Assembly: GCA_002189035.1 (NCBI GenBank)
Contig: NEEC01000015.1
Location: 186,001-250,000 of the forward strand
Direction of reading: 5' to 3'
DNA: 64,000 nucleotides
DNA from: Utricularia gibba
Lineage: Eukaryota > Streptophyta > Magnoliopsida > Lamiales > Lentibulariaceae
Part shown: one piece after another, positions 3,111 through 39,052 of the stretch
Numbering within the stretch: the stretch's first letter is position 1
How the letters are laid out: each line of letters begins with the position of its first letter
Notes under the pieces: generated by a model
Database searches by the model: none
Seen by the model: only the letters and a program-made list of their open reading frames with translations
What the model was told of the DNA's origin: nothing
Made by a program: the position numbers and the translations under genes

Positions 3111-5138
3111 ATGGGATTAGGTGGCAATGGCTGGAAAATGGAATCCTGGGAAGGGAAAAAATTCGAAAATGGGAAGAAGAAAGATCCAAACACAATCAAA
3201 GAATTTGGGTGCTGTACACGTTTAAGGTTCTTTGGATGCTGTACAACTTCAAGATCCAAAGTTGATAGCTCTATTAGCAGTATCGGTTCTAATGGTAATT
3301 CCTCTTCGTTTTTGTAAATTGTGTTTCCGCAGCCTGCTCGTCAAGTATTTGATCCGCATGTCCCTGAATATAGCTTCTTAGTGGGTATGGATTTTGATCT
3401 CATGAGTATGCTGTGAGGTGCAAGATGCGTTCTTCTTCTATATATTTCTCGAGTCCAGATTCAGAGTGAGTAGATTTATCTTCTAACTGTTCCATCACTC
3501 GTTGTCGCAAACAGAAAGTAAATCGACCAACGATGCATACAAGAATCAACCGGCCGTCCAACCAGTCCCATCTACATCAACAAGAAATTGTGGAAGTAAA
3601 TCTTCCAGCCTCAAATTTGAAGAGGACCTTAAAGTTTCTTCCCGGCTGCGGAAATTTTCTTTTGATGATCTAAGGTTGGCTACACGAAACTTTAGGCCAG
3701 ATTCACTTCTTGGTGAAGGGGGTTTGGATGTGTCTTCAAAGGGTGGATTGAGGAAAACGGTACAGCTCCTGTTAAACCCGGAACAGGCCTTACGGTTGCA
3801 GTCAAGACTCTGAATCATGATGGGCTTCAAGGTCACAAGGAGTGGCTGGTCTGATCTTTTCTAAATTCTATTTCTAAGTAGTTTCTTTGTGTTTATTTTC
3901 ACGTTGTATTTCATCCAGTTCTCTTGAGTGGCATTCGATTTTTCTGCAGGCTGAAGTTAACTTCTTGGGTGATTTAGTGCACCCTAACTTGGTTAAGTTA
4001 ATTGGCTACTGTATCGAAGATGATCAACGGTTGTTGGTCTATGAATTCATGCCCAGAGGAAGCTTGGAAAACCATCTGTTCAGGCGTATGGCCGTTGACA
4101 CTCCTTGTTAATTTGTGCTGATTAACTCCACATAAATCGGCCAAGTGATCTTCCCATTTTCTGTTGATCATAGGATGCTTGCCGCTTCCTTGGTGCATTA
4201 GGATGAAAATAGCTCTTGGTGCTGCAAAGGGTCTTGCTTTCCTTCATGAGGAAGCAGAAAGGCCAATCATATATCGTGATTTTAAGACATCGAACATACT
4301 TTTGGATGCTGTGAGTTCCATCGAAGTCTCAGCAGTCTTTGCACCGGATTGTTTACCAGACAAAGTGTGTTCAATCTGGCTGATCCCTAAGCTTTTCTTT
4401 TGTAACAGGAGTACAATGCGAAGCTTTCTGATTTTGGGCTTGCAAAGGATGCCCCAGATGAAGGAAAAACACATGTTTCCACTCGTGTCATGGGAACCTA
4501 TGGCTATGCTGCTCCAGAATATGTCATGACAGGTATGTACCCATCTTCCCTATCTTGATCTTCCGTTGAAATCCTGCAAGAGTTTACAGTGAACAGCAGC
4601 GATAAACATGTTCTGATGCGGTTGCTTTGCAGGTCATCTTACATCGAAAAGTGATGTCTACAGCTTCGGTGTGGTTCTCCTTGAGATGATCACAGGTAGA
4701 AGATCAATGGACAAGAACCGTCCAAATGGTGAGCACAATCTTGTGGAATGGGCTAGGCCTCATCTGAGTGACAAGAGGCGGTTTTATCGTCTTATTGATC
4801 CTCGGCTTGAGGGCCATTTTTCCATCAAAGGTGCCCAACGAGCTGCGCAGTTGGCAATTCACTGTCTGAATCGGGATGCAAAATCTAGGCCCCGGATGAG
4901 TGAAGTTGTTGAAGCCTTAAAACCTTTGCCACACCTGAAGGACATGGCTAGCTCATCTTACTATTTTCAGACGATGCAAGTAAACCCCCATGGTCGAAAT
5001 GGTCTTAGAACTCAGGTGTCCCAAGCCAGAAACGCGTCTCAGCAGCATCCAAGAAGCCTCTTCGTTGCGCATGGTGCTCATGCTTCACCTTTTCATCAGC
5101 TAGCTCGTGATTCTCCAGAACCAGATCCAAAACCGTAG
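3111..5138 (+). CDS. Receptor-like cytoplasmic kinase, RLCK-VII PBL34/35/36 type, apparent one-base frameshift
   Basis: This is a membrane-anchored Ser/Thr kinase of the family that relays signals from pattern-recognition receptors. Exons are 3111-3294, 3515-3848, 3950-4085, 4174-4310, 4409-4532 and 4633-5138, with canonical splice sites and matching phases. The N-terminus starts MGLGG (Gly2 is a possible myristoylation site) and carries two Cys pairs for possible palmitoylation. Kinase landmarks are the glycine loop, [22 protein letters not shown], the [15 protein letters not shown] activation segment and [15 protein letters not shown]. The C-terminal stretch [20 protein letters not shown] is typical of PBL34/35/36. 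One T is missing from the glycine loop codons at 3723-3725 (GGT TTG GAT where GGT TTT GGA is expected), so the sequence as given stops at 3813. With the base restored the reading frame gives about 473 residues. Homology on both sides of the break is close, which favours a sequence error over a dead gene. The gene converges on VDAC, with 318 bases between the stop codons. Confidence 0.9.
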
Positions 5139-5456
5139 GAGATACATCTCGCCTCCTGTCTTCCCTTTTTTTCTCCTTTTGGTGTGGTGTTATGTTATGT
5201 TTTCTGGTAAATGAAACGCATTGAGGTCTTTGCAGCATAGCATCAACAAAAAGTTTAGCAATGTAAAGGTCCTTGTATGCAAATGTTGTTCAATTTAGTA
5301 TCGTAGTAAGCTATCAAATGGGTTCGTTCATAAATGATTATTACCACAATAAAAGCCTCAAGGTTCAACAAATCAACAGTGTGGTCTTATTCATATGTTT
5401 TCTTTGTGGGGAAAAAATAAGGCATCCCAATGTTAGAAGCACTGCTCCTCCTGGTT

Positions 5457-7158
5457 TCATGGCTTGAGAGCTAAAGCCAGTCCAATCTTTGCGCTTTTCT
5501 CAATGGCTCTTGTGTCCACTTCGCCTGAAACTGTGATCAGGGACTTTGGGCGAAATTCATGCTGAATGAGAGCGCTGGCCTTTCCATAGTTGTTTATTCT
5601 AGCTTTCACAGCAGTCAGCGGATCAAGAGGATGCTGTGTACCAATATTCAGCGTGTTTTCCTTGGTTGAGAAATTGTGAGTGAACTCAGCTCCAACCGCA
5701 GTACTGCTCAAGGGGCTAACAGTATGGAAGTATGATGCAGCAAGAGTTTCACCCTTGTCACTCCTGCATCAAGATTAGTTCAAGAAACTCACATCAGTAT
5801 TTGATCTACATGTAACACTATTTTCTTTAGTAACATACAGGATCAATGACGCAATCAAATCTGCATTGGTGAAGCTGAACCCTGCATTGTATTTGGTAAA
5901 ATTCCCAGTAGCCGTGTCAAATGAGACATCAGTTCCAAAAGAAATGTTTTGACTTCCAGCAACACCAGAGAAGTTGATAACCGGCTTTCCCGTCAGTCCA
6001 AGACTAGTGCTAATTCCAGCATACTCATGAAAGTACTGAATTTCCACCTGTGACCAAAGGTTCAACACAACGAAATTATTAGGCCTCTGTTAAAAACTGC
6101 CATGCCCTTGCGTGCTTTAGATGTTCCCATATGAATTGCATGATGAAACTAACATGGCTCAATGGCAAAAATCACCTTGCCAGACTTCGGGTCGGGAGCA
6201 TTGAAACCAATGATGGCCTTCACTCCAGGAGCAGGCTCATCAACAGTGAAAGTTGCTTGAACCTGAATACCAAGGAATTTACAGTGCACAAACATAGAAT
6301 CTTATCTAGTATGCACAAACAAAAGTGTATACATGGATCGATTTCTAAGTATCGAGTAGCAAGAATCCGGGTCATTACAATACCTTGGAGTTCACATCAA
6401 CTTTTACATCCGCTGTGATGTTCTTGTGCTTCAATTGGGTGGTAACATCAGCCAACAGCAAATCACCCCTTTTAAGCCCTGTTGAAGTAATCGACTACAA
6501 AACCAAATATAACATAAAAATCAGGACGGTTCTGAAAGCTCGCTCCAGGCTTTTCTATTGATGATGACTACAATTATATGCATATTCTACAAATTTGACA
6601 GAAAGACAAACTTCAACAATCTCCGGTGTAAAATCTGTTAATAAGCCCCCATAGATCATCAGGTACAAATACCATGAAAGTTAAAACAACACGATAAACG
6701 TCACTCGACCTTGACTCTCTAAGCCAAAGAAGGCTTTTTATGTCAAGTGTTTTTCATTAAATGTGGATACAGGAAAAGAAAACACTCGTCACTCAATACC
6801 AAAATAACACAGTCAAGCTTACAAACATAAAAGCATTCCTATTCCAAAGAATGCTTTTTCTTCACGAGCCCCATGAACTGGGGCGGCGTCCATTATAAGA
6901 AATGAAAAACAAACGAGAAAGCAATATAATCACTCACCAACCCGTTTGAAGTATAGGTTGTGAGGGTGACTTTGTGGTCTCCCTGATAATCCTTGTACAG
7001 AAGATCTGAGAAAAACAAAAAGACCAAAAAAACAACGATACCTGTTTCAAAAAATCACAGCGATGCATACCAAAAATTCAAACCAATAAACGAAAGCAAT
7101 CACCTCTAGCCTTCTTCCCAATATCTGAATACAACCCTGTACTCTTTACGTAGACCAT
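5457..7158 (-). CDS. VDAC: Voltage-dependent anion channel, mitochondrial outer membrane porin
   Basis: This is a 19-stranded beta-barrel porin that passes metabolites and ions across the mitochondrial outer membrane. Exons are 7158-7104, 7005-6938, 6494-6384, 6262-6176, 6047-5839 and 5763-5457; all phases close and give 278 residues, the normal family length being about 276. Family landmarks are [18 protein letters not shown] at the N-terminal helix, the STGLKRGD segment with the GLK motif, [47 protein letters not shown], and the C-terminal [21 protein letters not shown]. The N-terminus ([11 protein letters not shown]) is about two residues longer than the usual MVKGPGLYS. I see no frameshift. 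Its 5' end lies 390 bases from the ESS2 start on the opposite strand, so the two genes probably share a bidirectional promoter. The neighbouring PBL34-like kinase matches the gene pair found in Arabidopsis. Confidence 0.97.
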
Positions 7159-7548
7159 TTTCGTTCTTGTCAAGTAGTGCTGAGAAATCTCCAACACAGA
7201 ACCAGAAAAGAAACACCGAAATGGAGAAGAGTCTTCACCTTGTGGTGTGTGTTAGGTTTCAGGCTTTCATTGTTAACCCCTTGAATTTTGTGATTCCTTG
7301 GGAAAAAATTTCTTTAATTTTATTTCCATATTATCAGGACTTAATTTACGTTTTTATCCAAATATACAAAACTACCGGATCGGGTTGGCCCGCAAACGTG
7401 GCGCAATATAGATTGTTGGCGTGGGAGCGGAAGGCAACATCAGAGTTCTTCGCTCCCCCAAATTGCGAGAGCCCTAGAATACTTTCCCTTCGATCTGGAT
7501 TGATCTCCTGGTGGTCAGATCGCGGCGCGTTTCAGAAACGCAAGCATT
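7159..7548. promoter_or_regulatory. Shared divergent promoter of VDAC and ESS2
   Basis: The start codons of VDAC (-) and ESS2 (+) are separated by 390 bases. The region contains both 5' UTRs and I see no clear TATA box for either gene, as is common for housekeeping plant genes. A plus-strand open frame from 7167 runs through this seg­ment, but its codons show no domain and it overlaps the ESS2 start in another frame. Confidence 0.6.
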
Positions 7549-9105: not shown

Positions 9106-9403
9106 ATCTGTTATCTGGGAACTTACTGTTTGTGCTAGTGTTCTTTATCAGAAAACTTGTTGAAGCTCTATCTGTAAGATATTATGTATCATCCTTTCCT
9201 CGTGGAGCATGCTCAATCACCCAATAAGGTGTACTTGTACGAATCTGTTACCTGATTCGAAGTTTTTACTTATCCCCAGTTGCCATTTGTGTGGAATGTG
9301 GTAAAGTTTTGAACTCCATGGGAATACACCGTTGCAAGCTTTTCTTTTTTTATCAAATACTAACCAATCAAATTGGACAGATGTGAGATTATGTCCCGCA
9401 TCG

Positions 9404-12075
9404 CTACATCTTATTACTGAAGCTACCACTCAGGTTTCCACTGTAAGTCCCGCCGAGGTTTCCACTACTTGTCCATCCTTCTTGAACCTGAACTGAATAT
9501 TGCATGTGCCAAAGCACATCTTCAACTGTTGGTCGTGCAGCAGGGTCCTTGCGTAGGCAATCGATCGTTATCTGTGCCATGGTTTTAAGCGAATCATAGG
9601 CATATGTCCCGCGCATTGAGGGGTCTATTACATCTCGCAAGTCTGATGTTGATTCTGCCAAGCCCATCTCTAGCTGAAAATGGAGATCATCTACTTCGTG
9701 CTGAGCAGTTGTAGGTCTGCCTGTGATAGCTTCAGCCAAAATAACACCCAGTTGGTAGATATCTTCCTTTTCTGGATATTTTCTGCAAGAAAAGGAAGTC
9801 GAAATACCAGCTGAGAAATCGGAAAGAAGATGAATGAGGTCAAGGAAGGTGAAATAGGCGGTTACTGGGGGTTTGAGGTTTCTGGTCTGTTGAGAAGGCT
9901 TTCTGGTCCAACCTGAAAGGACACAAATATGCGTGAGAGTTTAGCTGGTAAACTCTGTAATATAAGAAGCCTTCGAACAAAAAACGAACTCTCACCGTAG
10001 ATGGTAAGCTTATGTTGTAGTTGCTGATTTTTACAGTAAGAGTCTCATCCAGCAGAATGCTGTCTAGTTTCAAGTCATTTCCAACAATTCCTCCAGAATG
10101 CAGGTACTGAATCCCTCTTGCTATGCCCAAGGTGATCGCCATTCTCTGAGGCCATTTCAAGAACTCCCTTCTCCTCCAATCTGCAATATGGAAGCACATG
10201 ATGAGTTTGCTTCTTCAGAAATAAATTATGTTATTCCTTTTTCCAGATTCTGGATTCGAGTACCCATTAGATGATCTTTCAATGATCCGTTGGTGACATA
10301 TTCAAGCACAATGAAAACAGTGCTAGCTGTGTTTGGATAGTCATGGTGGGTGGCGATGCAGTGACCGAGAACGCTGACCAGATGCCGGTGTCTCAGCTTT
10401 GAGATCACCTCCATATGCTGATTCAGGGCTTGAGGTGCGTGCTTCTGTTTCATCTTCAAGCATTTTATCAGGACAACGGAGCCATTCCCAAGCCACCCCT
10501 TGAATAGCTGAAAATTATTGCAAGAAAACAGTAGTCACTTTTTACTCGTCTATTCCATTTAATACTTACTACTCACAGATGAATGAGAATCAGCTTACCT
10601 GTCCCTGTGGTCCGTCTTGCAGAAGATTCGATGTGTCAAAGTTGTTTGTTGCATCCTCCATTTCATCAACTGTGAAAACATTATATGGTGGCAATGCGGA
10701 AGATGTGATCCTCAGAGGCTGGTGTGCATGCCCTATGAGAACGCAGGAGAAATGTTAAGAGCTCTTGTAGCCAGTCCTACTACATTGAGGAAAAGAGTGT
10801 GTTTTATATACTAACTTGCCAGCAGAGAGGCGGGGGGCGGACTCTTCTCCATCATCAAGCTTTCAGATTTCTGGCGAATGTCTCCTCCCCACAGATACTT
10901 CTTCACAAGAAGCAATATCAGAGTCCCCACCAACACTAAAGCCACAAAAATCCCAGAAAGGATGCCAACAACAATTCCAAGTTTCATGGTTGTTTGCCCT
11001 TCCCGGCTTCGCTTGGGGGCGGCTGAACTGCTATCGCATCCTTTTGACAGAAAGCAGACGATTTCTGATACCTCGAGGTTGAGTTCGAGAGGCAATTCCA
11101 TGAAGTGATCACTGTCTTGTTTCCCTTGTTTGACTCAAGACAAGAAGGTAACTCTCCTAGCAGAGAGTTGTTTGAAAGGTCCACATAACTGAGATTCAAA
11201 TTGCAAGAGATGTCACCATCAAGTTCTCCACTCAGCTCGTTCTTGCCAAGATTTATATACTGGATTGATGGCAAAGAAAACAGGAAAGCTGGGATTGGTC
11301 CAATGAGCTTGTTGGATGAAACATCAAGGATTTGCAGATTATTCATCTCCTTGAAAGCTTGAGGGATTTCTGATCTTAGAGAATTGTTCCCCAGAGAAAT
11401 TCTCACAAGACTGTCAGCTACGGAAGGAAACTCAGGTCCCAGCTCATTGTTACTTAAATCCAACTCTTGAAGCAAAGGTAAGCTTCTGAGATCAGGAACA
11501 CTTCCATTGAACAGATTATCACTCAGCACAAGGCTTCTCAATAGTGGATAAGTAGATACAGAAAGTGGGATTTCTCCAGAAATGAAATTTGAAGTCAAAT
11601 TCAAAACCTCAAGCGATTTAAACCGGTTGATTTTCCCCGGCAAGGGCCCCCACAGTCCCAAAGAAACCAATGACAGCCTCTGCAAACTCCAGAGCTTGGT
11701 TAACACGGTGAGGAATGAATCTAGTGAGAATCTTTCAGACAAACTCTGTTGATAAACAGTGAAATTTGAAGCCTCAGCGGTCAGCCCTTGAATCCTTGAT
11801 GGAGAGCTTTTGTTTCCGACAATGGAGAGCTCAGTCACATGATTCCCTGAACAGGAGATTGTAAGGGAAGGTGTCGCAGGAAGAGAACAAAAATCTGTCC
11901 AACTGTTCCAAGATTGAAGAGGAGGAGGATACTCCAGAAGTTGCTGAATCTGCAAAAGGATCCTGCTCTCCGCTTGAGCCAATTGTTGCGCATCAGAAAA
12001 AAGTGAACCGCAAATAAGGAGAAAAGCAGAGTAACACCACAAACAGAACCGAACCCATGAAAACTCTTTGCCCAT
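9404..12075 (-). CDS. Inactive LRR receptor-like kinase (At2g02780/At3g03770 type), apparent one-base frameshift
   Basis: This is a plasma-membrane LRR receptor with a pseudokinase domain. Exons are 12075-10816, 10732-10599, 10507-10264, 10180-9996, 9912-9866 and 9782-9404. The protein has a signal peptide (about residues 1-28), an N-terminal cap (LQSWNSWTDFC), about seven to eight LRRs (for example LEVLNLTSNFISGEIP), a juxtamembrane Cys pair, one membrane span (LGIVVGILSGIFVALVLVG), then the kinase-like domain. Catalytic motifs are lost: the HRD position reads GND (VGNDLKLDSILL) and the DFG position reads SNY (KISNYNISL). Signalling by phosphotransfer is therefore unlikely and a scaffold role is inferred. 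In the juxtamembrane region a run of five C on the coding strand (plus strand G 11015-11019) is one base short: the upstream frame stops after AIAVQPPPSEAGKGKQP, while the membrane span is in the next frame. With one base added all exons close to about 749 residues. Confidence 0.9.
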
Positions 12076-13384
12076 TACACTGAAACTTCAATCAACAGAA
12101 ACCAAAACATTAACCCCACACCGATTTCGCTGAGATCCTCATCAGTTGAGTAACCGGCCAGCTACCATTTCCCATCAGCATTCAATAAAGCTGGAATCTT
12201 TGATCGGTTGGAGCTTGCCTGAGAACTGAAAAAGCTGGAAGCTGTACACGCAATAATGATTTGCTGAAACCGTGTAGTGGGTCTGCTATAAAAAGTAGCC
12301 TCCTCTAACCAGTTCATCAAAGGAAAATGGGAAACGGAAAAGAAAAACAAAAAACCTGTAAAATTATCCGTCAGTGAACAGTTAGCTGTCGGTCAGATGA
12401 AATCAATGCAGGTTGACGTATAGCTTCATTCACATCTCAAGATATCTTAATTTCGCAATCTTCATTTCATCTCCAGCTGCGCACCTCCACAAAAAAATAT
12501 ATTTTCATTAAATATTGAGAATTTCAACATAAAGTTCTTCCTCCCTCTTGCAATGGACAGCAACATCTTTTACCCCCCGGCCTACAGTATCGCAGTGCAG
12601 CAAATGAGCACCAGCCATCATTCACTCATCAAAAGCTTCCAATGGATCAAGCGTAAAGTTCTATTGGACTGGGTAAAAGCTAAACACTTGATTGGATTTC
12701 TTTTTTTGGATGCTCGAGCATTTGATCCGCCCCGAAGGCATCTGATTGTCGGCTGTGACCCAATGTGTGAATCCCTTCAATGCTTATATTGCACATGCCC
12801 ATCGAGAATGAAAAACAAAAGTGGGCAGTTGGAGTATTACGTAATCATTGTCGGCTGTGACGTGGCCTACCTGCTCTGAATGCCTTGCTCTTGAATCCTT
12901 TGAGTGCTCACCATCTGTATCGCCATGATGGGGATTTGGAGCTTTCTATCAGATTCTACGGCTTTGATTTCTCGTGAATGTTTGGTGGATTATCATTCTG
13001 CATGTGTTTGACTTTGTTTTGCTGGAGTCACTGTCTCCTATTTTCGATTTTTTAAATGGTAAATATTTATTCAATTTTTTTTCTATTTCTAGTCTCATGA
13101 TTTTGTGACATGTATAGCTATTAATTTTTGTATATATTGTTTAATTAGTGCTATTATAATTATATTCTTAACTCATAAAATAAATACAACATAATTTATA
13201 AAAGTTCCTTTAAATCCTAATCCCTCGATCAACCACTACGGTACTATTACAAGATTCAGATATATGCAGCGAAATATTCAGAGAAAGCACACCACCATTG
13301 TCCATTGTCCATTGTCCTGAAGCTCAACTCAGATGGCAACTGCGAGTGGAGGTACGCAAGCTCCTGAAGGCATGTTGGCCTCTA
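12076..13384. other. Intergenic region between the LRR pseudokinase and the PBL3-like kinase
   Basis: The first 300 bases are the probable 5' UTR and promoter of the LRR pseudokinase gene. About 13000-13250 is AT-rich. The remainder up to 13384 includes the 3' flank of the PBL3-like gene. I see no further gene; the open frames at 12553 and 12162 have no recognisable content. Confidence 0.5.
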
Positions 13385-18726: not shown

Positions 18727-21700
18727 TTAACCAAGATGGAAACCAGTTGACTTGAAAGAACTGCTTGCAAGGTCTGGAAGCATGCGAACTGCAATGATAC
18801 CAGCTCCCAGTGCGGATACCGAAGCTAAGACAAAAGCTGGTATGTTGCCACCCCGAATAAAGCATCCCAAGGTCCAGCACCAAGGGATACAATCATCTGG
18901 AATAAATCAATCGTTCACTTGAATATGAATGCAGATTTGGAATTTTTGTGGCAGATAAACAGATGTCTCGTAAGATGGGCGTTACCCCTATGAAAGTATA
19001 CCAATAGAGAGAAAAAAAAAATCAACCTGGGGTATCACAATGGCAAGATTAAGAACTCCGATGGCCAATCCTGAAAAAAAACAAAAACCAAAATCATGAT
19101 CGAGAAAATTTTGGAGTTCAAAGAGAAAGATGATGGCACGGGGAGTAAGACAGCAATTTTCAGCATACCTTGCCCACCTCCTGAATCAGCAGTTAATTCA
19201 GCTGTAACAGAAAACGGTACACTATAGGTAATCTGAAATGCACATGAAAGAAGTTAACAATGTTAAGCTTACGATGCATTTAAGAGAAAAAAAAAAAAAA
19301 AAACTTACTGCAAGAGGAACTCCAAGAAGAGCAAAAACAACCAATGACGCAATTTTAGTAGTTCTGCTTGCACCAATTATATGCTGGATTTCATTAGAGT
19401 GTTGTCTAGCAGATACCAAGCTGATGATGGCAGTAAAACCCATGCAAATAAATACAACAAAATTGCTAGTGGCCCATACTAGCCTTGGTCCGATAAATTG
19501 GCACATAGGATCAATAAAGAAGGAGCTGATGCCCAGGACAACCTGCATTCATCAAAAGAGGTCCACAATACGCACGATCAGTCATTGGATTGCCCAATGA
19601 TATTCCCAGTAATTCGTATAAGTGGAAGTCATGAGCCAAACTTCATTTGATTGTGGGTTCTTACAGAATTCAATAGCAAACCAAATGCACCTTCTCTCAC
19701 ACCTTGATTGTAGGCTTGAACTTCAGCATTCTCTCCAGTTGGATCGCCATGAAAAACTTCCCTTCCCATCCAGTCTGTGTCAAAGAGAAAAAATGGGAAC
19801 CAGGACAGCTACATAAAACAGAAAAAAAAAAAACATAGAAATCAGAATATAGAATTATCGAAAGGTACATGTGCCGACAAATCAAATATAGTTTGGAGTA
19901 CGTACCCAAGTCAAAGCCATGACAGCAAGCACTGAATGCATAGCAGGAGGTAAATGACGCAAGCTGGTTAGCAGGTTAACCAATACTGCTCCTGGACTGT
20001 TGTGAAAATTGTCACTTCTTTCTGAAATTCTTTTTTCAGATCCTGCAGCATCATCTACAGAATAATTCCTATTAGGCTGAACTTCCAGCTCATAGAAACT
20101 CGTATGGGAAGCAACTTTCAATTTTGAAAGCTCGGAAGACTCAGTGAGCTCAATTTCATCCAAAAGGGGAGCAGAATCTGATACATTGTGTAGTTGATCA
20201 GGAATCAAGGGTACTTCCCTAGCGAAGTAGAGGGTCACAAGTGTACACAGAGAAAGAAACACCTGCGTAACATCCAAAATTAGAAGCTAAATGATGAAAA
20301 ATTATGTACACATTACTGACAACATACTCACCACTGCAACCAAGAATGCAGCTTTGAGGTTCCCACATGGCTCACAACAAGCTCTGTTTGTTAGAAAGGG
20401 AAACCAGCTGCATATGAAAACAAAAACCATATAAGATGAGCAAGGTTATTATGCATACAAGGATGTAGATCAGCTTTACTCAGTGTTTTGATCATTTTTC
20501 TTGCATGATAAATTTGGTGTGTCAAATAATTCTTGAAATGAATATACCATAATCTCATCTTCACCTGTGCCATTTACCACTAGCCCCTGCTGAAAATCCC
20601 AGAATATTGCCAACAGCCATCCAAGAGCAAAATATTGCATTTGCAGAATTTCTCTGGTCAGGCCCTACAATTGAACGAGAAATTTGATTGGTAACCAAAA
20701 TAAGAGAACAGGAACCTCTGCTGGAGATCCAATAACATCCCACAATCATAGGACCAGAAGCCAAAGTTTCCAACTAAACATGTATTTTCACAAGCAAGTG
20801 AAATAAAATTATTCTCCTTCTTTCTTGTTTATCAATAAGAAAAGGCTAAAAAACAAAAGAATGATGTAGCAGGAGCAGAAGTGGGATTACCTGATAAATC
20901 AGCCAAGAGCGCTCTAGCTGGACCCTAGTAACAGTGAATACAGTCAATTTCCAAAGAGCAATTAGGGGAACACTAGCTGAGAGCTTCTTGACAAGTCACA
21001 TTAGAATCTACCTGTACAGTGTTGTTCGCAAGGTCAAGCATCCAGAATCCAATTACAAAAATAAATGCTGCCCTGGTTCGAGTACCTTTAAATATGCTGA
21101 ATTGAGAAGGGTTCAGACACATAAACTTAGATAACAAGTATGGACAGCAGAAAAGGGTGCGACAAACCTGCAATGCTCCTTTGTATCACCTAAAATGTAA
21201 CCAATGTCAGCCGAAAACCCAATAATGATGACCTGGTATAGAAGATTCAGTTAGGCATATATATAACTTCAGGTGACAAAAAGTGTTCATTGTGCCATAC
21301 ATACTGCGATGCATATCATTATAGCTCCTACAAAGATGAAAGGCCTCCGCCTGCCATACTTTGAAGTGCATTTATCGCTCCATATGCCAACGCAAGGTTG
21401 AACCTGGGGTTCGAGCTCAACTCAATTAAAAACCAAATCGAAACACTGGAGGCGTAGAAACTCAAAAGAAGAAAAAAAATATGGTCTTACAGCATACCAC
21501 TAGTCCAGTTATTGGTCCACAAAGCCATATGAAAGAAGAAGCAGCATGACCAATACCAAGCGTCTGTTGATAAAATGACATTTAACCCAAATCCAATCAA
21601 TCAGAGGTACACCACAGACAAAAAAATCAGGCCATTTCCGTACAAACCGCCTTCCATTGTCACCTTCATTGACAATTCCCATCGACGACCAAGTACCTCC

Positions 21701-22006
21701 CCCGCAAACCATAAAATCAATTCGCGAGCTTGCACTCACCTGAACATACGGGGTTAGAAGGGACAGCTGAAGGGCCCATCCGAACTGCACCCCTGCTGCC
21801 ACCGTGCAACTGAGTATCAGGGTCCAAAGACTGCAGTTTTTTGACGGCGGACGGGTCCGATCGGGATCCGGAGACAACTCACTCTCTTCAGATGGCAATG
21901 ATGGTTTATGGATCTGTTCCGCGCTCCGTGTTTCCCATTCCTCGGCGCCCACCAGCTCCACTTCCCTCTTCAAGTTCCTGTATGGAACCCTAGTCGGTAA
22001 TTCCAT
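18727..22006 (-). CDS. SUC3: Sucrose-proton symporter, SUC3/SUT2 type, apparent one-base frameshift in last exon
   Basis: This is a 12-span major facilitator protein that imports sucrose with protons across the plasma membrane. There are fourteen exons: 22006-21740, 21563-21498, 21403-21305, 21232-21168, 21096-21012, 20924-20891, 20664-20565, 20407-20332, 20262-19906, 19808-19665, 19542-19309, 19232-19169, 19070-19027 and 18896-18727. Landmarks are [82 protein letters not shown], the long central loop, [14 protein letters not shown] and [13 protein letters not shown]. The long N-terminus and central loop place it in the SUC3/SUT2 clade. In the last exon the coding-strand G-run (plus strand C 18851-18854) is one base short, so WDALFG is followed by a premature stop. 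The true C-terminus [15 protein letters not shown]...STGFHLG lies in the next frame. With the base restored the protein has about 601 residues. Confidence 0.94.
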
Positions 22007-22450
22007 TATTTTCACCACCGAAATCGCTTCGGCAACACCGATTCAAATCTCTAACTTTTCATGATCTGATTCTAATGGATGAAGCCACCGCCCGGAAAAA
22101 ATCAACGGTTTGTTTATGGTTGCGAGAGTCGTCCCATTTAGAACAGACACCAAGGGTACAATAGTCATTCTCATAATAAAAAATAACGTTATTATTATTT
22201 CTATCTCGTTTCTGAATTTCCAAGAGAGAAAAAAAAACTTTTTTTAAAATTTGTAGTCTATAAAAAAATATTTAAATAAAAAAGGATAACGAGGATGAGG
22301 AGAGCGATATGGAAATAAATTAAATTACAAATGAATTTTATGTAAAATATTAATTATTTTGTTAAAAACGAACTCCTAGCTGCCACACAATTTGAATTCT
22401 GAATAGGGAAATTTAGGCAGGTTCTTTTATTTCTATTTCATTGGATACCC

Positions 22451-23407: not shown

Positions 23408-23458
23408 TGTTATAGATGGAGGGGGATAAGAGGAGTAAGAATGTGAGGGCGTGAGAAT

Positions 23459-23490: not shown

Positions 23491-26346
23491 AATGAGAAAA
23501 CGGATAAAAGAATTCGAAGCCATTCGAATGGTGGAAAACGGGAAAACAAGAAGCAATTTCATTGCTTGCTTTTGGAGACAAGTTGGGAGAGATAAATGAA
23601 TGGAGATTGGTGATCCTTTTTTTTTTTTTCTTTTTTTTTTTTTGTAAGAAGGTGTTAATATGTCAGACAAACGTGTCGTTAGGTGACACATCGATTCGTG
23701 ACTCGATTCTCGAACAAAGTGTGCCGATTTTAAGGCAATGGGCCAAAACCCACGTTAAGACATTAAATTCCATCCGAAAAAGGAGAGGAAGAGAGACCAA
23801 GAAGAGGGCGATCCACACAAAAATTTGGAGAGGGAGCAAACCAACTTCCCACAAAAGCGTGATGAAATGACACAAGAATCAATGATTTTGAGATTTTATT
23901 ATAAGATGATGTGCTACAATGAAAAAATATACTCGACTTTGGACAGCATTTGACGTCCTATCCAAAACAGATATAATGAACTTGCAAGAACAAGTCATAA
24001 ACTCGACAAACGAAACCCTTGTCCGATAAAAATGAGATTGTGATTTTGTTATCAAAGCATAGTTGCTCATGCCTACATACTTGATAATTGTGTCCGACAT
24101 CCTTATTGGATATATATCTGCCATATATTTCGTAATATTTTAAATATGGTAATATCTCAATATATATTATTATATTCAAAAATAAATATATATTCAAAAT
24201 TATTGGTAATTCACCAATTCATATGTGACTCTTTTCGGATTTGACGTAACGCATTCTATAGGATTTCATACGTGAACATAGGTATGGAGATTTCTTTTGA
24301 AGACGACTCTTTAGAGTTGGAGGGATAACTTTATTTCTTTGTTTTGTATAAGATTTAAAGTCTGTAACACGGTGTTGATATTATAATTATTGTTTTGATC
24401 GTTTGTCACATTGATTCATTCAATTCCAGAAAAACCAATTTGCATAATATGTTGAGTGCTCTCCATTTTTTCTTCAAATTTCCATATCATTAAAAAGTTG
24501 TGTCGTTGTCTCTGCATATTAATTGATTACAACCACTTATTATACACTTACATTGATCAGACAACACTATGCATCTCTATATAAATAAGAAGAGGAAGAC
24601 CAAGATGAAAGAATTTGGACAAGATTGTCAGGCGATACAATTCAGCTGATGCAAGTGTAGCACAACACATGTTTCAGAATGATTATCTGAGCGCATAATT
24701 ACTAGAGCCCGGAGTTATCGAAGAAGTTACTTGACCAATTATTTCAGAACGTGGGTTCAGCCTCGTCCACTACCGGATCCACTTTGAACACCGACGACGA
24801 GTGCTCTGCAACCGGGTGTCGTATTCTGATAAAAAGGAAATTTAGTGTCGCTTACAATTTGTGTCCAAAGAGTTTAGTCACATGGATGGGGCCGAGGCAG
24901 AGTGGATCCAAAGGTCTGAGCGGCGTCAGAATCCGAGGAGGCCGCTGCTCCACACCTCGCATTGCCGTCAACCTGCACATAAGAAGAGACCCCTCCTCAC
25001 TCGGCTTAACTTTATTGAAATTCAAGAACCAATAGGTTATACAAGCACAATTAAAATTTAAACAACGTGAATCATATTAAAAAAGATTAGATTCAATTGA
25101 TTATTAATAATTTATAATTTTTTATATATGTAATTATTTGACTTTAAAATATCGTTTTCTTATAATAAACCTGAGGGATGCTGTCCTCCGAGGCAGAAGC
25201 AAACGGCGGCGTATTGATCTCCATCCGCAAGTCATGTGGGGGGTGGGACAATGATCATCTTACTTCAACCACATGCACTCACTACATGTTTTCTTCTTCT
25301 GAATCCGACAGTTTGGCGTGGATTTGTAAGACATTAAATGTTATTTTATATTAAATAATAAACATTTGATATTTAATATCATAAATCATGCATTCAATTA
25401 TTTAGATGAAACCCATAGTTATGTATTAGATAAATTTAATTAATTAATCTTATGATGTAAAGTACAACATTAATATGATTATTTTTTATAGTCATTTTAA
25501 TAATATGGTATATAAATTTAATTATAATAATTTTATGAAATACATCATAAATAATTCTTTTTTAAATTAAATTCTTTACAAATATACTTATGTTTTTAAA
25601 ATTTGTATAAATTTATATCATTCATATTTACTATACAAAACTAAAACTTGGAAATTACATTTTTGCAGGCCGCTGCTCCTGGATGAATGAAGACGTGGTC
25701 CAATCAGCAGCCTCCACGAGGACGTTCGGATTGATGAGTTTCGGTTACCTGGTAGAGGGGCGTACGTGTTCCCCCATTGACATTTCTGCACCCCCCCGAG
25801 TTGGCGCCAAGACTCCTCCTCCTCCTTTTTATTATATTTCATTTATTCACATAATACGTAGCGTAACCCGCACGAAATAATTTCCTCCCTCAAGTTTCAA
25901 GCACGTTTTGTTTGACTTTTGGGCCTCCCCCGAGTGCCGTAGCTCTCCCCGTTTCGGCATCGTGGGATTTGGAGCTTTCTTTTTCTTGTTTGCCGGTTTC
26001 CACTGCCCTTTTCACCCCTTTACACCGTTGACCCAGACATGGCGCTATAAATACTAAAAATATTAATTTTTTATTATACAAATAACAATTAATAATAAAC
26101 CTTGAGGTACCCAAAATTGGGCGCTGCCACCCATTAGAGAAAGGCAAGGTAAATTAAAAATAGAGGTAGGTGGAGGTGGACACGGAAAGCAAGTCGTCAG
26201 GACCTAAACCGCCTGCCTATTCCTCCTACGTATGTAACGAAAATAAAATAAAATAATAATAAAGATAGCGCCAATTATGAGGTGCTAATAGTGACACTGT
26301 GCATCCATCTCTATTATTGTAAAGCCAAGAGCGGAGAAGGAGACGT

Positions 26347-28257: not shown

Positions 28258-28290
28258 CCTCCTCTCTCTCTCTATCTCTCTTTCTCTTAC
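28258..28290 (+). promoter_or_regulatory. CT-rich tract in the F-box gene leader
   Basis: A pyrimidine tract of alternating CT and TCT units lies in the probable promoter or first non-coding exon of the F-box/kelch gene. Such tracts are frequent near plant transcription starts. Confidence 0.4.
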
Positions 28291-28473
28291 TTGAGGAGAA
28301 TAAACACTGGGGAACAGGGGGAAAGGGAAAGGAGAGCAAGATAAAGGAATACGGAAAAGTTCTAGATTTTCCGCTCGCTTGTAGATAGATTAGATGCCTG
28401 TGAAGGAGCAGAGGAGGGGGTATTTTGATAGTTCCGATCAGAATTCTTATTCTGTTCCATATTGGACACGTTC

Positions 28474-29213: not shown

Positions 29214-29283
29214 TTGGACTTCTCTCTGTGGAAGCCGTCTCTGCAACCATTGATTAAACACTTTCGTTTCTGCTGAGCAAGAC

Positions 29284-30584
29284 ATGCTGGAAGAAAGGCC
29301 TTGTTTCATTACAGTAGACTACAACAGGACCTGCGAACGCGAAGACAGTTGGCGGATGAATTTCCTGCCAGTAAAAGTCGAAGCTCATCCGAGCAAGCGA
29401 CCTTTGGAAACGGATGGAAATGAGGATGACGTGAGGAAGGTCCCCAAGCATTCTGGTAACGGGCTTTTGCTCATTGATTCTGATCCCCATGAAGAATCTG
29501 ATAGCCAAAGGCATGCCAGCGACAGCTCCGATTCAAGTTCATTAATCGCTGCCATTGGAAGAGACATATCCATCAGTTGCATCATTCGCTGTTCTAGAGC
29601 TAATTATGGGGTGATTGCATCACTGAACCGGAGCTTCAGGGATCTCATCCGAAGTGGTGAGCTCTACAGGGCTAGACGCCAGAACGGAATGGTGGAGCAT
29701 TGGGTTTATTTTTCATGCCAGCTACTCGAGTGGGAAGCTTTCGATCCCATTCACCGGCGTTGGATGAGTGTACCTCCGATGGATTTCAACAATTGCTTCG
29801 TGTTCGCAGACAAAGAATCCTTAGCTGTCGGGACTGATCTTCTTGTTTTTGGAAAGGATCTGATGTCCCATGTGATCTACCGGTATAGTTTGTTGACAAA
29901 TACGTGGATGAACGGAGTATCCATGAACCAGCCGCGATGTCTGTTCGGGTCCGCAAGCCTGGGCGAGATTGCAATCCTCGCAGGTGGCTGTGATTCAAAC
30001 GGAAACATTCTGAGCTCTGCAGAGCTGTACAATTCAGAAGAAGGCACTTGGACTGCTCTTCCAAGCATGAACAAGCCAAGAAAGATGTGCTCGGGAGTAT
30101 TCATGGATGGAAAATTCTACGTCATCGGTGGGATTGGAGGAAAGGACTCGAAGCTTCTTCACTGTGGAGAAGAGTACGACTTGGAGTCTCGAACATGGCG
30201 AGAACTCCCCAACATGTCTCCGGTTCGGGTCGCGGGAAACGATGCAGCTGCCACCTCTGAAGCTCCTCCCCTGATAGCTGTTGTAGATAATCAACTATAC
30301 GCGGCAGATTACGCCGCAATGGAGGTCAAGAAGTACATGAAGGAACAGGGCGTTTGGATCTCCGTTGGACACCTCCCGGAAAGAGCAGACTCAATGAACG
30401 GCTGGGGCCTAGCCTTCAGAGCATGTGGTCATCGTCTTATAGTCATCGGGGGCCTCGAAACACCGCAGAAGGTTACATCGAAGTGAACTCATGGGTTCCC
30501 GGAGACGGCCCTCCGGCGTGGGAGCTGCTCGGCAGGAAGAGCTCCGGCAGCTTCGTTTACAACTGCGCTGTGATGGGGTGCTGA
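29284..30584 (+). CDS. F-box/kelch-repeat protein, SKIP11/At1g26930 type, apparent one-base frameshift
   Basis: This is a probable substrate-recognition subunit of an SCF ubiquitin ligase. It is a single coding exon. The N-terminal 80 residues are acidic and Ser-rich. The F-box spans about residues 90-135 (LIAAIGRDISISCIIRCSRA...LNRSFRDLIRSGELYRARR). Kelch repeats follow, recognisable by GG doublets and spaced Trp residues: IAILAGGCDSNGNILSSAELY, TWTALPSMNKPRKMCSGVF, FYVIGGIGGKD and TWRELPNMSPVR. As given the frame stops at 30486, after LIVIGGLETPQKVTSK. One base is missing in the G/C run at 30448-30454; restoring it gives IGGPRNTAEGYIEVNSWVPG and the conserved C-terminus SGSFVYNCAVMGC, ending at 30584 (about 433 residues). 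The frame immediately downstream is conserved, so I treat the gene as functional with a sequence error. Confidence 0.93.
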
Positions 30585-32291: not shown

Positions 32292-34657
32292 GAGTACTCT
32301 AGGGGCTGAAATGAAAAAAAAAAATACATGAAAACGATGTAGGCGAATGTTTGAACATGGGTGGTGTTCTTTTTTCTGGATTTCCCTTTTTACCCCTGTG
32401 TTTTATGTACAAACTCCCACTTTTTCCATTGGCTGCCTGCCAAGTTTTGGTACCCCTTCATGAGATTGTAAAGGGCCTTTTTATCCAATATTATTCCCAC
32501 TTTAAAAATAGCGCGCATCATTCATAATATATTTAAACTCAAAGTCACAAGAGTAAAAATGAATTTCATTTATTATAAACTAATATTTATTTAAAAAATT
32601 AAGTTTGAATTATTCATAATAGGGATTGCATTAAATTAGAACTACGATTCAACTGTTTTGAACCACGAACCACTAAAAAATTGATTTACGGTTTTTTAAA
32701 CCATTTAAAATACTTATTCGCATGGTTGTAGAATACTTACATAATAATAAAAAAAAGGGTCACGATTCCCATGGGGTTGAGTTCAAAATGGTTGGAACAT
32801 ATCTTGAAAATGTGACTCTTGCCCCCAACGTGCCTCTTCACTTTGCGGGAAAACATGATTCCAAAAGTTGCACCCAACTCGCAAGTGGCATCAACCATCT
32901 CAATATTTCAAAATATATTATATGTGTATAAAAAAAGAAAAATGGTCAAATTTGTAAATCAATATGATTCATGAATCATTTAGAAAAGTAACAATTCTAT
33001 TTTTATCTCTCATATACTATGATCAATTTTTTTTATATATGTGATAATCATTTTTTGGACCAAGCATCAGTAGGAATTACGCGTAGAATGGCTTTCCGAT
33101 GAGAAAAAGAAAAGGAGTGGAGGCGAATCCGTAGCCCGTCGCGGTCGCTGTTGCTGTTGGGAGCTTAAGAATGATGGATGTGTGTGGAAGAAGACGGATG
33201 CGTGACGAATCTGTAGACCCAAACCCTAACCCTAACCCTCTCCTCCTCTCCCGTCCCTTCCAATCTACCCCTCAAAGTATAGCTGTGATTTAAATGCTCC
33301 AATTAGTTTTGATATTTGATTGACAAAATGTTTTTTTTCCATTTAAATTATATCAAACCCCAATTTGATCTAACGGAATCCACACCTCAAATACACATGG
33401 AATATATTGTAAACCCGAACTTTGAAATATATGATTATAATCATGTGTAGACTGGAAGCATCATTTGGGCATGAAAAATTAAATATTACATACATCAAAT
33501 ACACATGGGAGTCCAGATTTGGGTGTGGGTTTCTGTTTTGGAGGTTGGTAAATAAAAATAAGTAAATGAGAATATTAATGAATGGTGTGAAGTAGTGGTA
33601 TGGAGGAGGACCCAATCCAATCCAACCCAACCCAAGGTGTAGAGAGGAGAGGAGAGGACAGCACAGCGCAAGTTGGGGAGTGCAGAATATACGGTGGTCC
33701 GGGCGCGGGAAATTAACTACACCCGCGGGGTCCACCTGCCTCCCTTAACGGTCTCCACCTTCTTTCATTACAACGTAAAAATAAAACGTATCTCTCTATT
33801 CAAATATTTTAAGATTTTTCCCTTTTTCTCATAAAATTATTGATTTTCATTTTTCAAATAAATATAAATTAATATACAACTAATGTAGCTTTGTCACGTT
33901 GCAAATACTTCGTATGTGAATAAGATAAAATATATTTGGTTTGCTTATATTTAAAAAAAATTGATGTGCGGTGATTAAACTTTAGATGATAATTAACTTG
34001 TGAGATTAGAATTAGTATTAAGTAAAATAAACAAGGCATGATTTTATACAAGTGTGTGTACATGAGATTAAAAAAACCTACTAATTACAATTCATTTAAT
34101 CAATGAAATAATCATCCTATCATTTTTTAATCATATGCTTAAATCAATTTAGTAATATCAAACAAACACTACATTATGAAATATTTGATAGATAGTTTTA
34201 AATTCAATTAAAAATTTCATTTATATTAAATTCTACGTGTTTATCTTATATATTTAAATTCATTTATTAATTATATTTTGAATTTAAATACATAAATTAA
34301 TTTTAAACAAATTAGGAAACGCACCTTTATATATCCAAAAAGTTAGTTCCAAGGATTTGTTTTCCTGAACCAAACTTATCAAGACTGAGAGAAAGAAGCA
34401 CCATTAACTAGCAATTGAGTGGTGCGAGGGAAGTGATGGTTCCTCCAATTTCCTCTTTCTTACATCTCGCTTCAAGTTTCTGCTGCAGTAGTTCTAAAAA
34501 GTGTCGGGATAGATTCATGTCTGAAGATGTGCGTTGTTTCTATAGTTGATCAAAATCCACACTCCCAAGTTCAACTGAGACAACCCTGCAATCCTCCGTT
34601 GAATCTAATCTATATTTGAAAAGATCAGAGCGGTGAAACAGAGATGGGGCTTACCGC
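32292..34657. other. AT-rich intergenic region
   Basis: About 2.4 kb with many A/T tracts. A short array AAACCCTAACCCTAACCC lies at 33221-33238. A GGAGAGGAGAGGA purine stretch lies near 33644. I see no gene; the open frames at 32722 and 33370 are in low-complexity AT-rich DNA. Confidence 0.5.
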
Positions 34658-36480
34658 TTAGAGACCTTGAATCAGTTCTTTGATGTCATACCCTTGGAGC
34701 TACATGATAACCAAGAAGAAAATGCACAATCTTGTTACGGATTGAAAAGGGGGAAAAAAAAAGCTTGTGTTGGGGAAGCAGTTACCTGGAGAAAAGTGAG
34801 CAGCAAGATGACTCCCGAGTTCCAAAAGGCGTGAATCGTTATCGGAGTCAAAAGATTACGCGTCTGAGCATACGAGAACCCCAGAGCAGTTCCTAATAGT
34901 TATGTGAATTCAGCATACAACAAGTCCCAGGATAAAGAAGAAACCGTGTTTGCTCACAGGTTTGGTTTCTACATCTGTTTCTTTGTTCTAATGTTTTTCT
35001 TTAGAACTGAAAGAAAATATCTTCTAGTAATAAGTAGGGTCGGTAGAAGCATACCGAGGGCGAATAGCTGTGGGAATTCTCCGGGAGTGAGATGAGCACC
35101 AGCAAATACAGCCGCACTGATCAGCACTGAAACAGGGGTTGGTAGCCTGCTCACACGAGTAGAAAGAAGTGAATGAAACCATCTAAAAAGGATACCCTGT
35201 TTCCCGTCTTTTCAAGATAGAATTGATCCTGAAAGGGATGTACCATTTCGTGAGAGACACCAAGAAGAACCCCCGAAAGACAGTTTCCTCAAGAATAGGA
35301 GCAAGTACACCAGTGATTCCAACCAAGCAACCCGTACTATGCATCATTAGCATTGGATGTGAGGGAACTTACAAAATGAGTATCTAAGTTTGAAAAGTAA
35401 GCCATTCATTACCTGATGGTTGAAGCGCCAATCAAGGGAAGCAATTTCACAAGAGCATCCGTCTGTTTAGACGAAAAAACATCGTCCTCAAGCCAGGGAA
35501 GTTTCAGAGCAGAATGGAAATTAATCAGAAAAAATTAGGCTCATTCTGACCTCTCTCTGTGGCGGCTCACCATTGAGAAATGATACTGCTGCTCCTGTCA
35601 AGGCAACAGACGCTATACCCCCCGCAAGGCCGATTGCAGCCCATAACAACCAACCTTGCTTGAGATCAAAGGGCTCCTTCCAATCTGGAGAAACTGAGGA
35701 TAAGTATCTGCCAGCAAAAGCAGTGACACAAACTTGAGCAAGTTACCGTAACGATATATGTCATCTGGAAGAGGAGAGAGCGACTTTGTCAGACTAAGAA
35801 GGACTGCAAGAACCACCGTCGTAGCGATCCTACAAAAAAATGTAAAAGCACAAGGAATTCTGAGTTCAGAGAGAAAGGTACACTCGTAAACTGATAGATG
35901 ACTGAAATAATGAATAATACGCTTGGTCTAGGAACAGAATCTCAGCCTTCTGATCCAAGCTTAACGCTTCAATATTCAACCCCGAATACTCTAATGCTAC
36001 TGCCTCAATTATTCCTGTCAAAGCAAAACTGTCTGGAAGACCAATTAGCCCCTTGTTCATCTTCATATCATTCGCATTAAAAATTAACATTAAAATTCAC
36101 CTCAATCCACATGCTAGTGAGGTCAACGATATAGTTTGCCAGTTCCATGGAACGTCCCACCTTTTCACTATTCGCCAATTTAGCCCGCTATCCTATTAAA
36201 GATCAAACATTGGGTGCGATCGCTGGCTACCGCAAAAAAAAAAAAAAAAAGTATGAAGCAAAGGATTTACTTTCTGGACAGGATCCTCGGAATCACCGTT
36301 CTTGAAACAGCATATGCTCCTCCTGCAACCTCTTTCGACGCTTGTCCGAAGCTTGAGCGAAAACACGCAATCTTTGGGCAACTGAAACTGGGTTTTTAGA
36401 GATGGGAGACGTTTCGCCGCGAGAGAAGCGGAGGAGACGATGGAAGATGACCGACAGAAGGTATACAGAGATAAAGCCAT
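34658..36480 (-). CDS. Plastid CPBP/CAAX (Abi) family intramembrane protease
   Basis: This is a glutamic-type intramembrane protease-like protein, probably in the plastid. There are ten exons, all in phase: 36480-36271, 36192-36101, 36028-35921, 35829-35747, 35693-35551, 35462-35413, 35336-35244, 35146-35055, 34892-34786 and 34699-34658, giving 339 residues. The Ser/Arg-rich N-terminus (MALSLYTFCRSSSIVSSASL) looks like a transit peptide. After it come KRWDVPWNWQTISLTSLACG and several hydrophobic spans. Catalytic motif 1 is EETVFRGFF (EExxxR), motif 2 is FAGAH (FxxxH), and motif 3 is ITIHAFWNS (HxxxN-like). All expected catalytic residues are present. It resembles Arabidopsis At1g14270 by my recollection. 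A TATA box lies only about 36 bases from the ATG. The DMP gene ends 264 bases upstream on the same strand. Confidence 0.93.
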
Positions 36481-36515
36481 CAGTTACTGAATCTCACTGG
36501 AGTCGAATAGATAGC

Positions 36516-36522
36516 ATTTATA
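36516..36522 (-). promoter_or_regulatory. TATA box of the CPBP protease gene
   Basis: TATAAAT on the minus strand, 36 bases upstream of the ATG at 36480. If it is used, the 5' UTR is only about 5-10 bases; a more upstream start is equally possible. Confidence 0.45.
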
Positions 36523-36744
36523 TGGCCGGGGAATCCTGGAAGATAAGGTGAGATGTGATTTTCTATCTTCTTTCTGCTCGCTGCCGGGGTCAATCCGTAA
36601 ATTGAATATTTTTCCAGGGCGAAAGTGAAAATTACACCGGAAAAATTTTCTTTTTCCTTTTAGGCCCACTTAAATAAAAACGTTGCGAAAATGCAACTTG
36701 TTTAGATAGTAGTTTTGAGAATGGAATGGAAGAGGGCCACGCGC

Positions 36745-37407
36745 CTACGCAGCGACGCAGCCTATTCCGTATCTAGTAGTCGGAAAAACAAGAAACAACC
36801 CACTGCAGATAATGCCGACCATCAACGGGAAACTCTGCATCACCTGATCCAACTCCGCCGTGTGCCGGGGGAACACGCAGTCGGTGACACGGTGGTCCGA
36901 CAGCGCGATTGCCTCGAAAACGAGCGCCGACATCACCGCGTGGACGAAATCGCTCAGCCCAACTTTGTACTTGTCTTCTTTGGGAACTTCCACCCCCAGC
37001 CCCGCCTTGAAAACCGCCAGCCCCTTCGGCGTCACGAAGCCGTAGTACACTTTCCCGTCGGCGGCTCGGAAGGAGTCGGTGAAGTGGAAGAAGAAGCAGG
37101 AGAGCGTGCAGAGACCCAGGAGCGCGTAGATCATCTGGGTGGTGACGTGGGTGCAAGCGCCGCCGGAGTAGATCGACGGGAGGACCATTTCGAAGGTGAG
37201 TAGGGTTCCAGTGGGGAGAAAGTTGGCCAGTAATGTCGTTTTGGACAGAGTTTTCTGGACGCCACTCGCCATCGCGCGGCGCGCACGGCGGCCGGAGGTG
37301 GTGGTGGGTTCTGGAGTTACATCGATTTCTGGGTGGAGCGGTGGCGGATCAAGATGCGGGGAGGATGTGTAGACCTTTATTCCGATGGATTCCGCCGATT
37401 TCTCCAT
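36745..37407 (-). CDS. DUF679 membrane protein (DMP)
   Basis: A single-exon 220-residue protein of the plant DMP family, whose members act in membrane remodelling, senescence and, for some, gamete fusion. The N-terminal third is soluble and Pro-rich (SSPHLDPPPLHPEIDVTPEP). Four membrane segments follow: TTLLANFLPTGTLLTFEMVLP, MIYALLGLCTLSCFFFHF, SDFVHAVMSALVFEAIALSD and MVGIICSGLFLVFPTTRYGIG. The family motif around FTDSFRAADGKVYYGFVTPKGLAVF is clear, as is the conserved Asp-Phe-Val-His. The ending TTRYGIGCVAA is typical. The coding sequence is very GC-rich. The 5' end faces the aminoacylase gene, with 308 bases between start codons. Confidence 0.95.
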   Translation of the reverse strand: MEKSAESIGIKVYTSSPHLDPPPLHPEIDVTPEPTTTSGRRARRAMASGVQKTLSKTTLLANFLPTGTLLTFEMVLPSIYSGGACTHVTTQMIYALLGLCTLSCFFFHFTDSFRAADGKVYYGFVTPKGLAVFKAGLGVEVPKEDKYKVGLSDFVHAVMSALVFEAIALSDHRVTDCVFPRHTAELDQVMQSFPLMVGIICSGLFLVFPTTRYGIGCVAA

Positions 37408-37715
37408 CTCGCGTTTTTCCGCAGAAGAAACCTTTGTGAATAAAAATGGGATTTGCGGTTTCTTACGATCGGGATTTTTGAAATTATGAACCTAACCGTT
37501 GGCGGTTCCAGAAAAAGAAATATCACAAAATACCACCGCATTTTCTAACAAATTCTAATTTAGCCCCAAACAAAACAATGTGAGAAATTAGATTTCGCCA
37601 CTACGGACGACGGTGAATGGACTAGGCGACGGTAGTGAAGTTGAATTTGGATTCTGAGACAAATGAATATGTGATCGGAACGTAGGGTTGCAAGAAGTAT
37701 TCCCAGGTCGAGAAA
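37408..37715. promoter_or_regulatory. Divergent promoter between DMP and aminoacylase genes
   Basis: Only 308 bases separate the two start codons, so regulatory elements are likely shared. No clear TATA box is visible for either gene. Confidence 0.5.
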
Positions 37716-39052
37716 ATGGCTGGGTTCCGCCGCCCACATTCGCCATTGATTCCGGCGATTATCCTCGCCCTTGTGTTATTACCATCCATGAAAGCTGAGG
37801 ATCCCGATTCAATTGTAGCTCGATTTCAAGCGTACCTGAGAATCAACACTGCCCATCCCAACCCTGATTACAAGGGGCCGCCGATTTCATCGCCACCCAA
37901 GCCAAATCCCTATCCTTGGATACACAAATCCTTGAATTCGTCGCCGGAAAACCAGTGCTGCTTCTAACCTGGACCGGAACAGACCCCTCCCTGCCGTCGA
38001 TTCTCCTCAATTCGCACACCGACGTCGTCCCCGCCGAGGACCACAAGTGGCACCGCCCTCCATTCGCCGCTGAAATCGATGAATTCTCCGGTCATATCTA
38101 CAGCCGTGGTTCGCAGGACATGAAATGTGTCGGCATTCAGTATCTGGAGGCGATTCGTAAACTTCAGGCTTCTGGGTTTCGTCCCCTGCGCTCCGTGCAT
38201 TTATCCTTCGTCCCCGATGAGGAAATTGGAGGCCATGATGGTGCTGAAAAGTTCGCAGGTTCTGAAATTTTTAAGAATCTGAATGTGGGCATTGTCCTAG
38301 ACGAAGGTTTGGCCTCGCCGACGAACGAATATCGGGTTTTCTACGGCGAAAGGGTTCCTTGGTGGACTGTGATTAAGGCGAAGGGCGCTCCAGGGCATGG
38401 AGCTAAGCTGTATGACAACACGGCTATGGAGAATCTTCTCAAAAGTATTGAAAGCGTAAGGAGATTCAGAAGCTCACAGTTTGATTTGGTCAAGAACGGA
38501 ATCAAAGCTGAAGGGGAAGTTGTTTCTGTGAACATGGTTTTTCTCAAAGCAGGGACGCCATCTCCAACTGGCTTCGTGATGAATTTGCAGCCATCTGAAG
38601 CTGAAGCAGGTTTCGATATCCGGGTTCCACCGACAGCAGATGAAGAATCGCTTGAAAGAAGGATCGCTGAGGAGTGGGCTCCCTCTGTGAGAAACATGAC
38701 CTTTGAATTCAAGCACAGAGCTTTATCCAAAGACAAGAATGGGACGCCATTGATCACAGTTTTAGACACTTCAAATCCTTGGTGGGGATTGCTGCAAGAT
38801 GGGGTGAGAAACGCCGGCGGGAAACTGAGTCAACCGGAGATTTTTACGGCGTCCACCGATGCGCGATACTTCAGGGAACTTGGTTTGCCGGCGATCGGAT
38901 TCTCACCGATGGCGAACACTCCTCTTCTTCTCCATGACCACAACGAGTTCCTGAACAAAGATGAGTACTTGAGGGGAATCTCTGTGTACGAATCCATCAT
39001 CAGAGCTTTCGCATCCTACGCTCAGCAGATCAAACGGGATGATGAACTGTGA
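37716..39052 (+). CDS. ACY1: Aminoacylase-1, M20 metallopeptidase family, apparent one-base frameshift
   Basis: This zinc enzyme hydrolyses N-acyl amino acids to free amino acids. It is a single exon. A signal peptide is visible (LIPAIILALVLLPSMKAE, about residues 10-27), suggesting secretory or ER targeting. Metal ligands and active-site motifs are NSHTDVVPAE (His), RGSQDMKCVGIQY (bridging Asp), PDEEIGGHDGAEKF (Glu pair), LDEG near 38300 and LLLHDHNEFLN (C-terminal His). The dimerisation domain contains KAKGAPGHGAKLYDNTAMENL. Near the start one G is missing from the run at 37874-37877: the upstream frame reads NPDYKGPPISSPP, whereas with a fifth G it reads DYKGAADFIATQAKSLSLDTQI, the expected family sequence. 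The restored protein has about 445 residues. Without restoration, the main frame lacks its signal peptide and starts at an internal Met at 37916. Confidence 0.94.

Follow-up and report, generated by a model that had tools for sequence, protein, structure and literature searches.

The genome assembly of Utricularia gibba contains a 64,000-nucleotide stretch (positions 186,001 to 250,000 of contig NEEC01000015.1, here G000:C412:186001-250000 and hereafter the window) in which five protein-coding genes are each interrupted by a single frame change. All five changes belong to the minus-one class and lie at or beside a run of G or C. Why would five genes in one short region lose their frames in the same direction? 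We propose, with a probability of about 95%, that all five frameshifts are consensus errors left behind in an assembly built from long reads alone, and the breaks are almost certainly a sequencing artefact, not biology. For any single site, the status of error is a probable one that comes from comparing sequences. The first-pass annotation had suggested the same cause, and it is supported by the one-sided direction of the changes, their G/C context, the rise of their rate with run length, their density in the GRAS gene family and the behavior of redundant copies.

The proposed mechanism is simple. Consensus calling would report a G or C run one base too short, and would do so more often as the run grows longer; each slip in coding DNA would then shift the reading frame by minus one and split the gene model. 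Such error would account for a one-sided direction, a G/C-run context, a rate that increases with run length and a comparable frequency of frame changes in unrelated genes elsewhere in the genome. Homopolymer deletions in long-read consensus are a known kind of error, as set out in PMC4888979, where 561 deletions are given for the genome of a bacterium whose chromosome spans 2.9 Mb. The 19 events per 39,980 bases of GRAS sequence described below are far denser than in that example of Pacific Biosciences (PacBio) continuous long reads (CLR) after Quiver, a loose comparison given that coverage and DNA differ. The parts of the literature that we searched hold no report of such a frame-error rate for U. 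gibba. According to the assembly details in a review (PMC5793159), the genome was assembled with the hierarchical genome assembly process (HGAP) from 88x single-molecule real-time (SMRT) coverage into 581 contigs with a contig N50 of 3.4 Mb. The platform was probably PacBio CLR with HGAP/Quiver.

Frame breaks in five window genes

The assembly analyzed here consists of 100,091,633 bases in 516 contigs, with contig C1 at 8.5 Mb. Plant gene families were matched, namely homeodomain-leucine zipper, leucine-rich repeat (LRR) receptor kinase, eukaryotic porin, sucrose transporter and DUF679, with GRAS elsewhere in the genome. C375:3003963-3020113 (L024, L025) is a homoeologous counterpart of window positions 1-39058, collinear but inverted, with matches at 71-89% identity; such a segment fits an old whole-genome duplication. 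The sucrose transporter has no match in this segment, and some other window genes are likewise unmatched there. A search with window positions 1-60000 found no near-identical redundant contig over the five genes, the sister copies reaching at most 89% identity, and therefore one consensus cannot be compared with another at these sites.

The receptor-like cytoplasmic kinase gene (3487-5138, forward strand), which we take to be of the PBS1-like type, was aligned with its paralogues, and its last exon matches PF07714 (E 2.3e-7). Site 1 (3718-3725) falls in the glycine-rich loop, where a G run at 3718-3722 is followed by a T run at 3723-3725, and is one base shorter than three of the four aligned paralogues, all three of which are in frame. 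The fourth, L027 on C414, has the same shortfall at these codons, and a G run is present there in both L027 and the window; the missing base is at least as likely to belong to the G run as to the T run. The LRR receptor-like kinase gene (9407-12087, reverse strand) has PF00560/PF13855 matches in a 367-amino-acid piece and paralogues on C2 and C451, and its LRR and membrane-helix parts are in different frames. Site 2 lies between the two, in a variable stretch. Against either paralogue, the window shows two extra and nine missing bases, and this net shortening by seven amounts to a minus-one change. Its likeliest place would be the coding-strand C run (G 11015-11019 on the forward strand); the relatives do not fix it.

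The remaining three sites are more sharply defined. Exon matches to TIGR01301 (C412:205267-207832, window 19267-21832) identify the sucrose transporter gene (GPH_sucrose; 18727-22042, reverse strand), whose last exon contains site 3, a coding-strand G run (C 18851-18854 forward) one base short relative to both paralogues, on C244 and C213. The kelch-repeat gene (29284-30584, forward strand; PF01344, E 1.8e-33) has an 84% identical homoeologue at C375:3006977-3008442. Site 4, a G run at 30448-30452 followed by a C run at 30453-30454, is near its 3' end and is one base short relative to five of six copies, the homoeologue included, while this run carries a separate one-base gap in the kelch copy L030. 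Site 5 is a G run (37874-37877) early in the forward-strand M20 peptidase/aminoacylase-1-like gene at 37716-39052 (PF01546, E 4.5e-32; aminoacylase-1 structure PDB 1q7l, E 6.7e-52); it is one base short relative to the homoeologue at C375:3003963-3005291, the sole copy aligned, which is in frame at 89% identity. The limits of the kinase, LRR receptor kinase and sucrose transporter genes were set by eye.

Much of what the first-pass annotation had read from the letters is confirmed by these comparisons. Homopolymer runs are present at all five positions it named, each gene has one frame change with sister copies in frame, and all five changes are deletions in the sense of being minus-one relative to those copies. 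None is an intronic event, as a one-base step is too small for an intron. Its placement of each break in a short homopolymer stands for sites 3, 4 and 5; the T run it chose at site 1 has to share that role with the neighboring G run, and at site 2 the place is not fixed.

Are the genes themselves decaying? The M20 gene aligns with its homoeologue over 1,332 columns at 88.7% and the kelch gene with its own over 1,505 columns at 83.7%, and in each alignment the window site is the sole coding gap with a length not divisible by three; a second frame-changing gap was absent from the coding part of both. Apart from site 5, the M20 pair differs in length only by three bases, close to the stop. Past the break, third codon positions hold 85 of the 124 differences from the homoeologue at site 5, 9 of 16 at site 4 (phase re-read by hand) and all 19 differences from L026 at site 1, over 121 bases. 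By third-position share, relaxed constraint past the break is not seen at sites 1, 4 and 5, where a very recent loss would leave no trace. Most likely, the five genes are intact in the plant.

Frame changes in the GRAS family

GRAS genes are largely intronless, most having a single exon, and a gene matched twice, in two different frames, therefore reveals a frame change. A search for the family listed 70 GRAS matches at 46 loci, of which 42 were aligned to their best sister protein; those left unaligned are the loci on C316 and at C412:853787, which were compared with each other, and the fragments on C177 and C321. The count then omits seven of the aligned loci, two for introns (L005, L012), two as redundant contig ends (L008, L016) and three as decayed or poorly aligned (L015, L018, L060). 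The 35 counted loci, 39,980 bases in all, contain 19 frame changes in 13 loci. Every one of the 19 is in the minus-one class: 16 are one-base deletions and three read as two-base insertions, equivalent to a minus-one change plus a codon. Only three stops occur in these loci, each among the last few aligned codons, and none is internal.

The events are also enriched at G/C runs. A G/C run of at least four bases lies within 9 bases of 12 of the 19 events, compared with 10% of random positions (p ~3e-8), and a run of at least five within the same distance of seven, compared with 2.3% (p ~1e-7). A/T runs of at least four show no excess near the events (3/19 versus 14%, p 0.5). By inferred G/C run length, events number 5 for 148 runs of four, 5 for 33 of five, 2 for 6 of six and 5 for 5 of seven, a gradient that is biased towards long runs, as each event was assigned to whichever G/C run within 9 bases was longest. 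In four loci (L001, L002, L003, L006) an event falls in the same conserved glycine-glycine-proline-proline motif, the codons of which form G/C runs.

Redundant contigs and competing explanations

Where one locus has been assembled more than once, the independent consensus copies differ more by missing bases than by substitutions. The 38 kb contig C316 aligns with C412 over 7,895 columns with 4 mismatches and 13 gaps, and in all 13 the bases are missing from C316. The end of C414 and C422 have 0 mismatches over 1,181 columns and 4 gaps, all missing in C414; the start of C416 and C422 have 0 mismatches over 922 columns and a single gap, missing in C416. Duplicated genes can behave similarly: among three EF-1alpha copies on C1 (L022), two show no difference over 1,394 bases, and the third departs from them by 2 gaps and 0 mismatches, the gap bases being absent from the third copy in both cases. 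Mutation would be expected to add substitutions; consensus error need not.

Several observations weigh against consensus error as the full account, the assignment bias in the run-length gradient being one. When all 42 aligned GRAS loci are taken, 24 minus-one changes stand against 6 plus-one changes, in 19 of the 42; the G/C-run excess persists in this larger set (13/30 versus 10%). Two of the 19 counted events are not near any G/C run of at least three bases, and the excluded locus L018, with two internal stops, resembles a true pseudogene. The gaps between C316 and C412 range from one to nine bases (some of 2, 4, 7 and 9), and some are in A/T or mixed sequence; G/C contraction is therefore not the sole error there. 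An inverted pair on C304 (L023) shows no difference over 2,179 bases, so that the error is absent from some duplicates. Elsewhere in the window, C7 (three), G8, C16 and C23 runs are present. Finally, the 516 contigs of this assembly do not agree with the 581 given in the assembly details of PMC5793159.

Could the frameshifts be real? They might mark young pseudogenes left by the whole-genome duplication, with the homoeologues keeping the function. Sites 4 and 5 share with duplicate-gene pseudogenes the loss of frame in one copy and an in-frame homoeologue; for two of the five genes the C375 segment has a copy that is in frame, such redundancy would tolerate loss, and L018 testifies that decay does happen in this genome. 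Unlike such pseudogenes, the window has no plus-one shift at its five sites and retains constraint where this was tested, with the third-position bias persisting past sites 1, 4 and 5 and no further frame-changing gap at sites 4 and 5. The sucrose transporter lacks a match in the C375 segment. Real decay should also bring stops and shifts in both directions, as a damaged psaA copy on contig C515 seems to, and it is hard to reconcile with 19 of 19 one-sided events across 35 GRAS loci. We therefore consider this origin very improbable. The earlier judgment that widespread pseudogenisation is improbable is supported by the codon structure kept at three sites and the 35 GRAS loci without internal stops.

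Real one-base deletions at G/C runs, produced in this clonal aquatic plant by a bias like that of microsatellite instability (e.g., if mismatch repair were weakened), would generate one-base deletions at a rate rising with run length, which is the expected spectrum of slippage, and substitution rates in this plant family are among the highest in angiosperms by the statement in PMC5749785. Slippage should produce insertions too, and none was counted in the 35 GRAS loci; A/T runs show no excess, the differences between redundant contigs are mostly or entirely private missing bases, and MutS-type ATPase domains are matched on seven contigs, a result that speaks for domain presence only. It is also hard to credit that 13 of 35 GRAS loci are broken in a living plant. 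We regard real slippage as a still weaker candidate than pseudogenes; if true, such a state fixed in a clonal genome would contribute to genome shrinkage. Least credible of all is that conserved G/C runs direct programmed ribosomal frameshifting or hold micro-introns. Some breaks do recur at the same places in paralogues: L027 shares the one in the kinase glycine loop with the window, L030 shares the one in the kelch gene, and the GRAS motif is hit in four loci. Yet sites 1 and 4 also have paralogues that keep the frame, and the recurrence arises because glycine and proline codons make G/C runs. Consensus error remains the explanation that we favor.

Contrast cases and consequences for annotation

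The psaA copy illustrates what decay looks like in this assembly. At C515:70174-74549 (L021), a damaged, plastid-derived psaA lies beside a psaB with a 744-amino-acid open frame. Stops and shifts both ways interrupt psaA, in frames that were read by eye and to whose damage consensus error may add. The same contig carries cox1 in two pieces. The psaA gene was considered as a plastid-gene control and rejected, as cox1 shows C515 to be mitochondrial, and its psaA was most likely acquired from the plastid and is truly decaying. Where comparable, the five window genes do not look like it.

A second contrast is provided by DCL3, whose N-terminal truncation in U. gibba is described in PMC8333044. Paired RNase III matches were found at four loci (C255, C244, C3 and C213), and Dicer_dimer matches at three of them, not C213; an unmatched domain in this assembly is no proof of absence. 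The C213 locus (L063, C213:2754500-2763500), with its RNase III matches and without one to Dicer_dimer, is the DCL3 candidate and agrees with the truncation as published there. Upstream of the gene on C213, at a distance of about 1.3 kb, open frames on the opposite strand resemble an RNA-binding protein gene by eye. Given these frames and the lone missing Dicer_dimer, we do not favor the truncation being a frame-error artefact.

Other features were recorded along the way. The near-identical EF-1alpha copies are clustered in both orientations at C1:2666000-2675999, and a longer inverted match in that cluster, over 2,381 columns, has diverged to 92.65%. Unusually long C runs of 16 and 23 bases occupy window positions 39929-39944 and 54107-54129. 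A short dispersed repeat at 25006-25166, found at no fewer than 39 genomic places with 73-91% identity, is possibly an element like a miniature inverted-repeat transposable element (MITE), and a short interstitial telomere-like CCCTAA repeat is present at 33224-33235.

The finding opens no biological question; its value is as a warning about mis-framed genes. Of the 35 GRAS loci counted, 13, or about a third, cannot be modelled in one frame. If consensus error is the right explanation, counts of gene losses, truncated proteins and pseudogenes drawn from this assembly are inflated, and claims of loss of function in U. gibba need support from transcripts or short reads.
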